Positions 9,822-39,981 of a DNA stretch of 64,000 nt are shown here, in pieces (position 1 is the stretch's first letter; each line of letters starts with the position of its first letter). The notes below the pieces were generated by a model. The model was given only the letters and a program-made list of their open reading frames with translations. It had not been told where the DNA came from and ran no database searches. The stretch is from positions 62,001 through 126,000 of the forward strand of contig CALHBJ010000013.1 in assembly GCA_937930845.1 (NCBI GenBank), read 5' to 3'. A program made the position numbers and the translations under genes. The DNA is from an uncultured Rhizobiaceae group bacterium. Its GTDB lineage: Bacteria; Pseudomonadota; Alphaproteobacteria; Rhizobiales; Rhizobiaceae.

Positions 9822-10670
9822 CTATTCACATTTAGAAACAGGTAGATATTCCAGTTCTTTCAACTGACCTGACAACGCATAATCTGGGTATTGCATCTTC
9901 AAATCGCGCGAAACGCCGCTGGCGTGAAGGTAGAACGAGACCTGGTAGCTGGGCAGTCTTTCCCCGGCATTGGCTTCTTCACCGGTGGAGAAATAGCTTA
10001 CCGACATGGGCCAGGCTTCTTCTTTGCTCAGCGATTTAACCAGTTCTTCAGGCTCGCCCTTAAGCCCTTCAAGACTGGGTTTGGCGCGGCCGATGACGGC
10101 GGTGGTATCTACCAATTTGTCGCCTTCGTCCGATCCATCAAACACTTTCGCCTGAACAATGGTTTGCTCAGCGGCGGCGGCATCAAGCAGTTTCGCGATA
10201 TGGGCGGTCATGTACATGGCTGTATCCAGCTCGACTTCGCGCTCATCGGGTTTGGAAATTGTGATCTTGATCTTGTCGTCCTTCTTTGAGGCGCGCCCGC
10301 GCAAATCCTGTTCCTGCTGACCATTGAGGAAGGATTGGGTGACAAAGCTGAACTCATTTCCATCACCGCTTTCAAATGTGGAACTGCGCTGATCGTTGGT
10401 GAATGTCTTGCGGGCAGATTGAACGCGAGTGAGAAAACGAAAGCGCACGGTGAATCCCTCACACACCGAGCCTTGCATTTCATAAACAATGCGACCGTTC
10501 ATGCCGGTGATTCCAGATCGATCACTCGCCTCCTTGAGCGACAGATCATATACGGCGCGGTGAGCGCGCAGTTTTTCCAGTGCACTGGCGTGGGCCTGCG
10601 GTGCTGGCCATATGCTGGCCATTGTCGAAAGAGATACGGCAATTGCGAACAGTGTCGGAGTTCGTGTCAT
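9822..10670 (-). CDS. eipB: Cell envelope integrity protein EipB (DUF1849)
   Basis: A 282-residue periplasmic protein; in Brucella abortus EipB maintains envelope integrity and folds as a spiral beta-sheet with one disulfide. The start at 10670 gives a cleavable signal peptide ending near PAPQAHASA; the frame is open further upstream but without signal-like sequence. Two cysteines sit at residues 70 (QGSVCEGF) and 281 (SKCE at the end), close to the Brucella C69-C278 pair. Other matching stretches are RAVYDLSL near the mature start and YLPVSKCE at the end. This family is characteristic of Rhizobiales and is a main argument for the taxonomic call. It diverges from ridA. Confidence 0.92.
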   Translation of the reverse strand: MTRTPTLFAIAVSLSTMASIWPAPQAHASALEKLRAHRAVYDLSLKEASDRSGITGMNGRIVYEMQGSVCEGFTVRFRFLTRVQSARKTFTNDQRSSTFESGDGNEFSFVTQSFLNGQQEQDLRGRASKKDDKIKITISKPDEREVELDTAMYMTAHIAKLLDAAAAEQTIVQAKVFDGSDEGDKLVDTTAVIGRAKPSLEGLKGEPEELVKSLSKEEAWPMSVSYFSTGEEANAGERLPSYQVSFYLHASGVSRDLKMQYPDYALSGQLKELEYLPVSKCE

Positions 10671-35417: not shown

Positions 35418-36725
35418 TCAATGCCTGGATGGCTTTGCCCGTGGCCCGAACTCGATCACACTCTCCCCTCCCGGAAAGCTTTGATTGGCGCGCGCCAATG
35501 GTTCCGCCCTGTGGATTCTGGTCATCGTCAGCCTGTTGGTAAGTTCTTCGGCAAGCAATCCACACACCGCAAGCGCCCAGCCGGCAGCCACACATTTGTG
35601 GTGATCGACACCAAATGGCGAAAAGTGCGATCCGTCGTATTTGGCCTGTTCGAAACGTGTTGCATCGAACTGGTGAGGACATGCAAATTTCGTATCGTCA
35701 TTGTGCCCTTCCCACAGGCACAAGCGAACAAGCGCGCCGCGAGGGAACGCAAAACCTTCAAATGTGAAGCCTTTTGTGACCTTGCGCATGATGTATTCGC
35801 TTTGGTGCATGCGCATGGTTTCGCTGATCGCTGCGCGCACAATGCGCCGTCGTTCCTGCAAATCACCGGACGTGCAAATGGCGTCCATCAACGTTGGCTG
35901 GTCGGCAAATTCCTCAAGCATCCAACTCCACAACCGTTGCATGTCTTCAGCAACGCTTTCGACGCTGAAAATGAGATTGCCCAGCATTTGCTCGTCATAG
36001 GTATCGCCGTTCAATGCCTGCAACAACATCGACGGTTCGACCGTATCATCCTGCTTGATGGCTTCGGCGTGTGGTCGAACAATTGCTGCAATTTCCTCAT
36101 ACATGCGCCGAAGCTCTGGGGTAATTCTGGCCAGTTTCATTTCTCTGGAGAAGTCCACAAACATAGGGCGAAGGCGCTGTTCGAGTTCAGAACCTGGTTG
36201 AACACCAATGATCATCATCATTGTCAGTTCCAGCGCTGCCTTGCGCATGACGATTGCGGCGTCATTCATTTCTGCGGGCTGGGGCAATGCCAGAAGACTT
36301 TCTGCAACCCGCTGAAACAGGGCACGAAGGCGCGCTTCGCTCTCCCCCACAGGAACACCCGAAACGGTTGCCGATACGGCTGGACGGAACGCGCGGTGTT
36401 GTTCGCCTTCCATTCGGCGCAACAGGCCGCCGGGGAACATTTTTGCGTAGTCAACGACCGGTGTGAACAAGTTGTCGGCGTATTCGCGCGTCAGCTTCAT
36501 GGACAAATCCTGGCCAACCACGCAAATCGTCAGTTTGTTGTAGAACCATAATTTGAAAATTGGCCCATCGGTTTGCGCCCGTTCCTGAAAGAAATGGCGC
36601 TTACCATCGTAATTGGAATAGCTGGTGGCGAGACTGCCCGGCGGCATGGCGCCCTGCAGGGGTGTGGCAGCAAGATGTGCACGCATCCACGCCGACATTT
36701 TTTTTCGGTGCAGCCCTAAATTCAT
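35418..36725 (-). CDS. Cytochrome P450 with atypical I-helix
   Basis: 435 residues from the ATG at 36725 (a TTG at 36770 in the same frame is possible). The heme-ligand loop is FSPFGVDHHKCVAAGWA with the cysteine at 378; the ExxR motif is SETMR (302-305). The expected (A/G)Gx(D/E)T oxygen-activation motif is absent: the segment is NLIFSVESVAEDMQRLW, where only a Glu-Ser pair could stand in. It is soluble, with no membrane anchor, so it uses separate ferredoxin partners, none in this window. It diverges from the small peptide gene at 36945. Confidence 0.9.
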   Translation of the reverse strand: MNLGLHRKKMSAWMRAHLAATPLQGAMPPGSLATSYSNYDGKRHFFQERAQTDGPIFKLWFYNKLTICVVGQDLSMKLTREYADNLFTPVVDYAKMFPGGLLRRMEGEQHRAFRPAVSATVSGVPVGESEARLRALFQRVAESLLALPQPAEMNDAAIVMRKAALELTMMMIIGVQPGSELEQRLRPMFVDFSREMKLARITPELRRMYEEIAAIVRPHAEAIKQDDTVEPSMLLQALNGDTYDEQMLGNLIFSVESVAEDMQRLWSWMLEEFADQPTLMDAICTSGDLQERRRIVRAAISETMRMHQSEYIMRKVTKGFTFEGFAFPRGALVRLCLWEGHNDDTKFACPHQFDATRFEQAKYDGSHFSPFGVDHHKCVAAGWALAVCGLLAEELTNRLTMTRIHRAEPLARANQSFPGGESVIEFGPRAKPSRH

Positions 36726-36772
36726 TTGCCAGCCACTTGTTGAATTCCCTTTACCGCAGTCCGTTTTCAATC

Positions 36773-36787
36773 GGAACCACAGGTTCC
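36773..36787. promoter_or_regulatory. Palindrome upstream of the P450 gene
   Basis: GGAACC-ACA-GGTTCC is a perfect 15-base palindrome, 48 bases before the P450 ATG. CGGAACCA at 36772-36779 recurs at 36872-36879, exactly 100 bases away. This looks like an operator; no regulator gene is adjacent. Confidence 0.5.
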
Positions 36788-36867
36788 CTTTGCCACAAGC
36801 AGTTAACGAGAGCCATAGAAAACCGTTTACTTTTCAACGTAATGCTTGTTTGACACGAGCCAAAGTG

Positions 36868-36884
36868 CTAACGGAACCAGTTAG
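36868..36884. promoter_or_regulatory. Inverted repeat upstream of the peptide gene
   Basis: CTAAC-GGAACCA-GTTAG, 17 bases with perfect 5-base arms, 60 bases before the peptide start. TTGACA at 36850-36855 could be a -35 element, but no good -10 is seen at 17 bases. Confidence 0.4.
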
Positions 36885-36944
36885 TAACCTATGTCTCCAA
36901 GGCTCCCGGAGGCACAGACTTGATTACCGGGTTGGGAAAAGACC

Positions 36945-37052
36945 ATGAAAAAGAACTACAATACGCCATCATTGATCGCGACTGAAAAGCTGATTGCGGT
37001 GACCGCCGTTTCCTCACCAACAAGCGGTGTAGCAAACGCCTATTCCAGATAA
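36945..37052 (+). CDS. 35-residue peptide with YxxPxL leader motif, candidate RiPP precursor
   Basis: A small gene (ATG 36945, TAA ends 37052) with GGGA seven bases upstream of the start. The peptide begins MKKNYNTPSL, so Tyr5, Pro8 and Leu10 match the YxxPxL leader motif that lasso-peptide precursors use to bind their recognition element. The middle is EKLIAVTAV and the tail is SSPTSGVANAYSR, with a Thr two residues before the likely leader end. There is no cysteine. A perfect hairpin follows 12 bases after the stop. No PqqD-like recognition protein, leader peptidase or Asn-synthetase-like cyclase is in the window; the only candidate enzyme is the divergent P450 220 bases away. Coding status is inferred from motif, site and hairpin, not proven. 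Confidence 0.55.
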   Translation: MKKNYNTPSLIATEKLIAVTAVSSPTSGVANAYSR

Positions 37053-37064
37053 TCCTGGGTGATG

Positions 37065-37084
37065 TGCGGCAGAAATTTGCCGCA
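37065..37084 (+). terminator. Hairpin directly after the peptide gene
   Basis: TGCGGCA-GAAATT-TGCCGCA has perfect 7-base arms, 12 bases after the stop, with only TTCT following. It may end the short peptide transcript. Confidence 0.5.
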
Positions 37085-37179
37085 TTCTGACTTCGGCCAA
37101 ACGTCCTTCCATTTGTTTTATTGTGTTTTTTGCCGTTAAATCGATTACGATTTGGGGCAAAATGCTCTAGCGTTTTGGC

Positions 37180-39981
37180 ATGGATCCGAACACAATTCCC
37201 AATCTGCCCCCTGCTCCCGATGGCTTTGACATGTGCCATGCGGGACAACGCCTTGCCCAGATCACCGCCGGGATAGACCTCGACACCCGCGCTGAAGGGT
37301 TTGAACAGGTATTTGGCCCCTCTTTGGAGGTGGAAACGCCCGCCGCTTTTGCCAATGGACTTGCAGAAGCCAAGGCGATTGTCGCCAGTGTCTATATCAA
37401 GGCGCTGCGTGGGCCGATTGAACAAGACTATGAAAATAGCGAGAAACTGGGTCGGTTCTGGTCTGCATTTGCAGACTGGTCGATCAATCGTGCCCTTGAA
37501 TTCGCTTATCAAATGCCGTTGGTGTCGCGCCACCTGGCGGCTGACATGCCCAAATCGCCAGCTGAGAGCGGGTTATTTGTTTTTGGCCTTGGCAAGCTTG
37601 GCGGGTGCGACCTCAATTATTCCAGCGATGTGGATCTCGTAGCATATTTCGACCCTGACCGCTTTCATGTGCGGTCCGATGCTGGGCGCACAGATGTTGC
37701 CAATCGCATTATGAAAAACCTCACCCAATTGCTCACCGGCAGCCATGGTCAGCGCGTTTGGCGGGTGGATTGGCGATTGCGGCCAGACCCTTCCGTTACA
37801 GGACTGGCCATGTCCTCCCATGCCGGGCTGGATTTTCACTTCTTTCATGCCGCCCCCTGGCGCAGGCTGGCCATGATGAAAGCCCGACCGGTTGCGGGCG
37901 ACATTGGTGCGGGCCAACAATTCCTGGACGAACTGAGTCCGTTCCTGTGGCGCAAGACACTGGACTTTCGCGCCATTGAAGAACTTGGTGGCATCAAGCA
38001 ACGCATTCGCTCTGAGCATCCGGATCTCGAAGAACAACGCATGAGTGATGTGCCGCTGGGCACTTTGGCCGGTTTCCACGTCAAACTGGGTGCCGGTGGC
38101 ATTCGTGAGATCGAATTCATCGTCAATGGATTGCAGCTTGTTTGGGCCGGACGCCAACCCTCCCTGCGCACCCCGCATACATTGACGGCCCTGCGCACAT
38201 TGGCTCAACTTGGCCATATGGACAGCGCCGAGGCCACGGCGCTGGAACAGGGCTATGTGACATTGCGCGGACTGGAAAATCGCCTGCAGGCGTTAAATGA
38301 TGGCCACGTACATACTCTTCCCACAAAAGAATATTCCGATTTATCTTCATGGAGTTATATCGAATATCTATATGATGACATTAATCCAGATATCCTGGCA
38401 TCACATTTTGCCAAGTTTAGAGAACTCATACATGAACGCTTCTCTATTCAGTTCGGCACACCGCTTGACGAGCCCGGCGCAGACAAGGCCAAGGAAAATG
38501 CGCCGCGTGTCGAACATAAATTGTCAGACCAGCAACAGGCGATTGTCGACAATTGGCTTGAGGGATTTACCAATCTTGGCTTGCCACGCGAAATAGCCCC
38601 ACGCATGGGGGCCCTCTCCCGCGCGCTGATTGACCTTGTCAATGAATCCGATACGCCGGAAATCACAATCGACAAAGCCCAGTCCTATTTCCGTTCCCTG
38701 CCCCCCGGCGGTCAATATCTGCGCCTTCTGGCCGAACACCCCCAATTGGCACGTGATATTCTAAAACCGCTGACCGAAGACGGTGCCATGGCGCGCCTGT
38801 TGCTCCATTCTCCCCATGTGGTTGATCTGTTGATCGAACAACGGGGACACGCAGAAACCAGCCCACAGGAACGGGCTGATCTTGGTGCTTTTGCCAGTGC
38901 CCAGCGCGACGAAGAGGCCCAATTGGAGGCGATGCGGGCCCATGTGAATGAAATGCTGTATCTGGCTTATTTGCGCCTGTGGCGCGGCGAGATAGATGCA
39001 GCGCAGGCGCGCACATTGCTCACCACGCTTGCGATTGAGGCGCTGGAGAAAACCAAGGCCCTGGTTTTGGCCATGGGCAATAAGGATGGCGGTGTGGAAA
39101 CGGCTGATGTTTCCATAGCGGGGTTCGGCAAGCTAGGTTCTGCTGGCATGTTGCCTGAATCTGACCTTGACCTTGTTTTCCTGGCCCATGGGCCGGAAAG
39201 CCTGGAACTTGAGGATGTGGAAGCCGCCCACAAATTCGCAACCCGGCTGAAGACGGCCTTAAACGCCAATATGCGCGGCGGGCGCATTTATGAAGTGGAC
39301 ACGCGCTTGCGGCCATCGGGTGCTTCGGGCGCGCCGACCATTCGCCTGGCCACATTTGAAAACCACCAATTGCAACGCGCCAAAACCTGGGAACACATTG
39401 CCCTTGTTGCCGCCAGAGCGGTTGTTGCGCCGCGATTTGCCAGCGATGCCTTTGAAGGCGTCCGTGCCATGGCGATTACCAAACCCCGGGATTTGCAGCA
39501 ATTGCACGATGATGGCCATTCAATGCTGTTGCAGTTGCGTGAGCACCGCATTGCCCGCCCCGCCAAGGGCACAATATCAATCAAACTGGTGCCGGGCGGT
39601 CTTATGGAAGCCGAATATCTGATTTCATTTCTGGCGATCAAACATGCCCCCGGCACGCCCAAACTGGTTGATATTGCCTATGACGATATTGCCAAAACGC
39701 TGGAAGCTACCTGCCCGGAACTGGCGGGGCTGGACACGGCATTCAACACATTGCGCGATGCCCACATGTATGGGCGGCTGTTTGGGATTGAAGGCAAGTC
39801 CGCCTCTGCCTGGAATGTGGTGGCCAAGGCGCTTGATACCTCACCTGAAAAGCTGGCGTCCAACCTGAGCGACGCCACAAGCCTCATTGAGGCACTCGTT
39901 CAACAGGAGATCATCAAACCGTCGCACCTCACCAAGAAAAAGGCCGCGAAATACCGGGAAGAACCCGTGCGCTGGCTGTAA
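37180..39981 (+). CDS. glnE: Glutamine synthetase adenylyltransferase/deadenylylase
   Basis: A bifunctional enzyme of 933 residues that adds or removes AMP on glutamine synthetase in response to PII and glutamine, controlling nitrogen assimilation. The two nucleotidyltransferase domains are visible: the first at GLGKLGGCDLNYSSDVDLV (about residue 133) and the second at GFGKLGSAGMLPESDLDLVF (about 648), each with the metal-binding Asp pair. The helical regulatory linker lies between. The length is normal or slightly short. A stretch of lower GC occurs around 38310-38440. It is monocistronic here, with its promoter between the peptide hairpin and 37180. Confidence 0.96.
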   Translation: MDPNTIPNLPPAPDGFDMCHAGQRLAQITAGIDLDTRAEGFEQVFGPSLEVETPAAFANGLAEAKAIVASVYIKALRGPIEQDYENSEKLGRFWSAFADWSINRALEFAYQMPLVSRHLAADMPKSPAESGLFVFGLGKLGGCDLNYSSDVDLVAYFDPDRFHVRSDAGRTDVANRIMKNLTQLLTGSHGQRVWRVDWRLRPDPSVTGLAMSSHAGLDFHFFHAAPWRRLAMMKARPVAGDIGAGQQFLDELSPFLWRKTLDFRAIEELGGIKQRIRSEHPDLEEQRMSDVPLGTLAGFHVKLGAGGIREIEFIVNGLQLVWAGRQPSLRTPHTLTALRTLAQLGHMDSAEATALEQGYVTLRGLENRLQALNDGHVHTLPTKEYSDLSSWSYIEYLYDDINPDILASHFAKFRELIHERFSIQFGTPLDEPGADKAKENAPRVEHKLSDQQQAIVDNWLEGFTNLGLPREIAPRMGALSRALIDLVNESDTPEITIDKAQSYFRSLPPGGQYLRLLAEHPQLARDILKPLTEDGAMARLLLHSPHVVDLLIEQRGHAETSPQERADLGAFASAQRDEEAQLEAMRAHVNEMLYLAYLRLWRGEIDAAQARTLLTTLAIEALEKTKALVLAMGNKDGGVETADVSIAGFGKLGSAGMLPESDLDLVFLAHGPESLELEDVEAAHKFATRLKTALNANMRGGRIYEVDTRLRPSGASGAPTIRLATFENHQLQRAKTWEHIALVAARAVVAPRFASDAFEGVRAMAITKPRDLQQLHDDGHSMLLQLREHRIARPAKGTISIKLVPGGLMEAEYLISFLAIKHAPGTPKLVDIAYDDIAKTLEATCPELAGLDTAFNTLRDAHMYGRLFGIEGKSASAWNVVAKALDTSPEKLASNLSDATSLIEALVQQEIIKPSHLTKKKAAKYREEPVRWL

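Follow-up and report, generated by a model that had tools for sequence, protein, structure and literature searches.

A 35-residue peptide gene beside a divergent cytochrome P450 in a Rhizobiaceae bacterium is a candidate precursor of a linear, phosphorylated RiPP-type product

The small reading frame at positions 36945-37052 (+) of the window, the 64,000-nucleotide stretch of Rhizobiaceae DNA analyzed here, probably encodes a linear phospho-RiPP-type precursor that is matured in trans by an enzyme set encoded on contig 10 of the same genome (G000) and oxidized by the neighboring cytochrome P450. This proposal builds on the membership of the ORF in a precursor family, on a set of B1, B2, kinase (K) and NTP_transf_5 (N) genes with conserved catalytic residues and no detected cyclase, on an invariant serine, and on a threefold pairing of P450 and precursor genes in this genome. 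By analogy, the system is best read as an alphaproteobacterial counterpart of the linear polyphosphorylated peptides (LPPs) of Bacillota, in which B2 would serve as the leader peptidase.

The frame encodes MKKNYNTPSLIATEKLIAVTAVSSPTSGVANAYSR followed by a stop codon and lies between the divergent P450 gene (35418-36725, -) and a gene at 37180-39981 (+) that, from its sequence, we take to be glnE-like. A putative ribosome-binding site, GGGA (36934-36937, +), stands 7 bases upstream of the ATG, and a hairpin (37065-37084, +) starts 12 bases past the stop. The hairpin is a perfect 7-bp inverted repeat with arms at 37065-37071 and 37078-37084 and no T-run; its folding energy is -18.7 kcal/mol (z = -2.3), which 4 of 200 shuffles matched. 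The reading frame, the GGGA and the perfect hairpin, with their distances, had been described in an earlier note on this DNA and are confirmed, as are the positions of Tyr5-x-x-Pro8-x-Leu10 and Tyr33 in the product. The predicted leader, residues 1-21 (MKKNYNTPSLIATEKLIAVTA; 36945-37007, +), carries Tyr5, Pro8, Leu10 and Thr20, and the predicted core, residues 22-35 (VSSPTSGVANAYSR; 37008-37049, +), contains the P-x-S-G motif common to the cassette precursors. Met1 (once as GTG), Lys2, Tyr5, Pro8 and one serine, Ser27 in the window peptide (codon 37023-37025, +), are invariant in the nine peptides of this family found in the genome. The invariant core residue is Ser27, the predicted kinase target, and not Tyr33, which the earlier note had named as a possible crosslink target. 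The putative cut site follows the lasso Thr(-2) rule (PMC10368454), Thr20 occupying the position of the penultimate threonine of lasso leaders.

Comparison with other genera indicates that the frame is very probably a real gene. When a six-frame translation of the whole genome was searched with a profile of 17 precursors of other genera, the window ORF came out on top (E=1.2e-6), and the ranks below it went to five more of the nine precursors of this genome. With a profile of 15 precursors of other genera, the ORF was the first of 1908 small ORFs taken from the window and three loci of the same genome (E=1.9e-8), and precursors of this genome filled all top eight ranks. Since the ORF had originally been picked by its YxxPxL motif, we cut everything through YxxPxx from the 15-sequence profile; the ORF still ranked first of the 1908 (E=0.0025), the other precursors of the genome following at E=0.035-0.5 and being interleaved with unrelated frames from E=0.18. 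As a control, 1649 small ORFs taken from the surroundings of P450 loci elsewhere gave a best E of only 0.83. It is scarcely conceivable that the frame is a chance ORF and not a gene: it has only 35 codons, and the search of 14 congeners returned no clear homolog and a single match at E=0.45, but an independent profile places it at the top genome-wide and its non-YxxP half alone places it at the top of the 1908 small ORFs. The earlier proposal of a RiPP-type precursor with an RRE-docking leader is supported by these outside profiles. We also consider it highly unlikely that the ORF arose by duplication from the contig 10 precursors and has since decayed and fallen silent. It does lie apart from its cassette, and scoring of 36500-37300 for promoters and terminators returned no sigma-70-like and no terminator-like site; however, it is the best match in its own genome to the profile of other genera, and its ribosome-binding site, start codon and core motif are intact.

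The window peptide has sisters in the same genome. A degenerate DNA pattern for M-K-K-x-Y-x-x-P gave nine matches, versus none for the reversed control, and eight of them are open frames: three on contig 1 (L015 8391, 8529 and 10215), two on contig 7 (L016 9607 and 9836), two on contig 10 (L014 9723 and 9995) and one in the window. The remaining match, C1:983091, is interrupted by an in-frame stop and was left out of the peptide count, and the ninth peptide starts with GTG on contig 7 (L016 12803-12705, -). The family thus consists of nine peptides on four contigs, six of them clear by profile and three by motif and place. The same pattern occurred 0 or 1 times in each of 11 congeners and 0-3 times per genome in 384 other genomes of the class, where the control gave 0-2, so that it is near background there. 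The three less clear members are probable precursors by motif and place: the contig 7 peptide MKKTYERP... matched the outside profiles weakly (E=0.0047 with 15 sequences, 3.8 with 17), MKKIYTAP..., also on contig 7, had E=11 with the 15-sequence profile and no match to the 17-sequence one, and contig 1 peptide a had E=0.0022 with the former and is absent from the match list of the latter. In the tandem pair C10a/C10b, dN and dS were 0.18 and 1.13 over the first 23 codons and 0.56 and 0.55 over the remaining codons, rates that, with small numbers and a single pair, indicate the conserved leader and variable core of a RiPP-type precursor.

Contig 10 encodes, near two of the precursors, a B1 PqqD-like RRE (Pfam, 49.4 bits; cut-off 23.4), together with a lasso-type B2 peptidase (NCBIfam NF033537, 57.4 bits; cut-off 33), an NTP_transf_5 protein (81.3 bits; cut-off 31.2) and an HprK-like kinase that is weak by Pfam (E=0.24); the set further includes a formyltransferase-like gene, of a kind present in 4 of 18 loci. 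The B2 gene is the sole match of its type in the genome, with none in the window. The statement of the earlier note that lasso proteins are absent from the window stands for B2, and its idea of a PqqD-like partner elsewhere in the genome is supported. The same B1/B2/kinase/NTP_transf_5 set is carried by the congener G009, and a kinase profile search was positive in 17 of 397 genomes of the order, from 9 genera. All four genes, for PqqD, B2, HprK-like kinase and NTP_transf_5, were present at 18 of 18 loci with the kinase (16 from the kinase search outside G000, plus G000 and G009), loci that were picked by their kinase and include two shorter stretches, L096 and L103, the latter ending at a contig end. 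The His-Lys-Asp-Asp residues of the kinase were conserved in all 18, as were the B2 motifs R/P-C-[LF] and H-C-W with their conserved Cys and His. The best four PDB matches of the kinase profile were HPr kinases, aligned across some 40 positions around the P-loop at E=2e-4 to 4e-3. HprK_rel_A (NCBIfam TIGR04352) belongs to the same kinase superfamily, but the kinases of our genome (17.5 bits) and of L095 (26.4 bits) both score far under its cut-off of 200. Searching plasmids for the L095 kinase returned no match.

The small frames beside these sets share the pattern K-x-Y-x-x-P-x-[LV]...L-x-x-[VI]-T-A-x(2-9)-x-S-G and often occur in tandem, with three copies in L094 and L098 and four in L095, one of which is about 5 kb away from the rest. 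A precursor was found at E<=0.05 in 14 of the 18 sets, 13 elsewhere and the one in our genome; L089, L091, L092 and L097 had none at this threshold, L097 containing a frame with YERPEPLKREPAATMVAAFSN at E=3. As the leader-cut profile was partly built from the loci it searched, the independent finds are those in L038, L088, L090, L093 and L096 and the further copies in L095 and L103. Among 36 peptides, 28 have a core with Ser-Gly and all have some serine in it, a tally that leaves out two fusions to Peptidase_S74-type domains; Ser-Gly is the stronger evidence, a serine alone being weak since it is not rare in a short core. None of four other-genera precursors scanned against NCBIfam matched any model at E<=0.1.

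The combination of a YxxPxL leader, a Thr at -2 and B1 and B2 genes raises the question of whether the ORF is a true lasso precursor with its cyclase gene at some other place in the genome. The leader does have the YxxPx[L/V/I] motif that lasso systems use with a discrete RRE, and the peptide matches a lasso precursor model, though weakly (16.6 bits versus a cut-off of 33). Against this, the genome has three Asn_synthase matches, one of which scores 458 with the asparagine synthase model (above the cut-off of 267) and stays below the threshold of both listed macrolactam cyclase models (192 versus 525 and 48 versus 300). The other two are frames that, by sequence, we take to be MnmA and ArgG. 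An Asn-synthetase-like cyclase was found in none of the 18 loci, whereas the lasso control loci L034 and L035 were both positive in the same search, made with queries that match each other only at E of about 1e-6. In addition, the window core contains no Asp or Glu, and the lasso rules for the core (a small first residue and Asp/Glu at positions 7-9) fit only 1 of 34 family cores, 2 of the 36 having been left out as not cuttable by motif. With both the cyclase test and the acceptor-acid test failed, lasso peptide identity was rejected, and we give this explanation a very slim chance. L035, from the congener G011, is an apparent true lasso locus with an ABC transporter, B2 and an Asn-synthetase-like cyclase.

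The set nevertheless resembles the phosphorylated lasso systems Bsf, paeninodin and pseudomycoidin, which, according to PMC10368454, PMC9266682 and PMC8498205, likewise have A, B1, B2, K and N genes, a YxxP-type leader and a His-Lys-Asp-Asp kinase, and provide the precedent for Ser phosphorylation; unlike in those systems, no cyclase gene was found here and the window core is without an acceptor acid. His-Lys-Asp-Asp is described as required by lasso kinases (PMC9266682), BsfK as phosphorylating Ser3 of a YxxPxL precursor with the assistance of B1 (PMC10368454), and the NTase-like PsmN of pseudomycoidin as adding hexoses to phosphoserine (PMC9266682). The set also resembles the LPPs, which, as PMC13381572 describes them, combine an RRE, an HprK-like kinase, an NTP transferase and a YxxP leader with no cyclase, LppK polyphosphorylating core Ser3. 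Shared with our family are a discrete RRE, an HprK-like kinase, an NTP transferase and the lack of a macrolactam cyclase, in 18 of 18 loci, and also a YxxP leader and a core serine. However, our loci encode a transglutaminase-like B2 peptidase where LPPs use the signal-peptidase-like LppS, and the LPP leader consensus YxxPxVLxHQxIxFETxxS is not matched, HQxIxFET being present in none of the 36 peptides by eye. The hosts are Alphaproteobacteria, whereas PMC13381572 calls LPPs restricted to Bacillota, and many precursors lie far from the cassette, some beside P450s. LPP clusters also contain an MsbA-like transporter. Across our 18 fetched regions we saw no constant transporter; ABC-type matches occurred in four of them (L088, L090, L092 and L098), none between the four genes. 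Given the presence of B2 and the different leader consensus, we do not file the family as LPPs proper.

Following the Bsf, pseudomycoidin and LPP precedents, we suggest the pathway below. Its assumption of trans-processing is a point against it, the P450-linked precursors lying on contigs other than that of the cassette. The contig 10 B1 protein, acting in trans, would dock the K-x-Y-x-x-P-x-L leader; the HprK-like kinase would place a phosphate on Ser27; the NTP_transf_5 protein may then transfer a group, hexose or nucleotidyl, onto the phosphoserine; and B2 would cleave after Thr20-Ala21. With no cyclase step, the product would be linear. The divergent P450 may also oxidize the window peptide, most likely in the tail that follows Ser-Gly, VANAYSR.

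The window P450, with the ATG at 36725 taken as its start, matches Pfam p450 at E=8.9e-22 in a scan that used a longer TTG start, and it has two paralogs (32-35% identity) that are neighbors on contig 1 and adjoin precursors. The best NCBIfam match of all three is ApyO (NF050147), the P450 of aminopyruvatide biosynthesis and a RiPP P450; at 41 (window), 66 and 56 bits they fail its cut-off of 525, and the linked precursors, unlike those of ApyO, have no YLY motif. Each of the genome's three P450s of this clade faces a precursor, with start-codon gaps of 219 (window), 191 and 144 bp, the third gap being measured from the ATG at 10215 and one P450 start being a TTG from the ORF list; one pairing has an extra tandem precursor. 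The clade is rare, being found in 7 of 397 genomes of the order, 1 of 61 relatives and 2 of 385 genomes of the class, G000 counted each time. Narrow patterns yielded two loci on genome contigs, one of them identical with the Kaistia locus of G258. Relatives were also found in five Mesorhizobium plasmid records, one of which was opened. P450s of the window type recurrently adjoin glycosyltransferase-like genes on a Mesorhizobium plasmid, in Kaistia and in a Hyphomicrobiales MAG; the loci are L109 8971-11261, L018, L019, L020 and L026.

As a general rule, the P450-precursor pairing was rejected: no precursor was found at any of nine P450 loci outside the genome (L021, L026, L104-L109 and L120; best E=0.83), among which L021 is on a 3.4-kb contig and L026 and L120 are on 7.9-kb contigs, with correspondingly short flanks. 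The earlier note had itself named a lack of such peptides next to P450 genes in other species as grounds for refuting its reading. Its suggestion of the P450 as the partner of the peptide is borne out insofar as all three P450s face a precursor, but the main machinery appears to be the cyclase-less B1-B2-HprK-NTP_transf_5 set. The rarity of the clade and the lack of a precursor at the nine outside loci suggest a recruitment specific to this lineage, the pairing occurring three times in our genome and in none of the other species covered here. It is rather unlikely, though deserving of real weight, that the P450 is unconnected with the peptide or has a different substrate such as a surface glycan, the peptide, of the same family, receiving only the kinase and peptidase steps. 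The homologous P450s of Kaistia, the Hyphomicrobiales MAG and the Mesorhizobium plasmid have glycosyltransferase neighbors and no such peptides, no P450 of the clade lies near five precursors of our genome, those on contigs 7 and 10, and the stretches fetched around the 18 cassettes contain no match to the window P450. Yet three of three such P450s facing a precursor at 144-219 bp is very unlikely to be chance in 3.76 Mb whose precursors occupy four contigs, an argument limited by two of the three being neighbors on contig 1 and thus not fully independent.

Under the preferred reading, in which the P450 does act on the peptide, the tail after Ser-Gly is the likely site; this assignment is based on tail lengths, which are 7-14 residues after Ser-Gly in the four P450-linked peptides, whereas of the other five peptides of the genome four have 4-5 residues past the matching serine dipeptide and the fifth 12. 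The four P450-linked cores have no common aromatic position, and an aromatic crosslink was ruled unassignable, in agreement with the earlier note. There is an even chance, in our estimate, of a hub-and-spoke arrangement in which one maturation set serves scattered orphan precursors, some spokes having their own P450, to give P450-oxidized linear phosphopeptides, a product type that our search of open-licence PMC papers did not find. Such an arrangement would make this the first LPP-like family outside Bacillota.

Our results supply precursors for a conserved alphaproteobacterial RRE/B2/HprK-like/NTP_transf_5 set that may pass for an incomplete lasso cluster and on which no paper was found among open-licence PMC papers. 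The RRE-Finder study reports that with the discrete lasso RRE model only about 4,000 of almost 8,000 matches co-occur with a peptidase and a cyclase (PMC7470986). If our proposal is true, linear phosphorylated RiPPs reach beyond Bacillota, with a different peptidase. The genome studied here offers a direct way to test whether such peptides are matured in trans and tailored by a P450.

Several further features of these loci deserve mention. Three orphan precursors on contig 7 (L016 9607-9952, +, and 12705-12803, -) have no evident tailoring gene adjoining them, and their flanking genes are, as judged by sequence, presumably pyrH-, tsf- and rpsB-like. An Acyl_transf_3/SGNH (O-acetylase-like) gene lies near the contig 10 cassette (L014 6136-8298, -); LPPs have been reported near capsule loci. 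A precursor-like leader is fused to a Peptidase_S74-type (endosialidase chaperone) domain in proteins of 131-133 residues beside the same cassette in L038 (11282-11683, -) and L090 (4856-5251, -), the domain being assigned at 33 bits (cut-off 22) in L038 and by similarity to L038 in L090. Tandem arrays reach five precursors in L096 (6759-7510, +) and six in L103 (4642-6113, +), and in L096 the docking proline is replaced by alanine (a Tyr-x-x-Ala variant, YxKA), which bears on RRE specificity.
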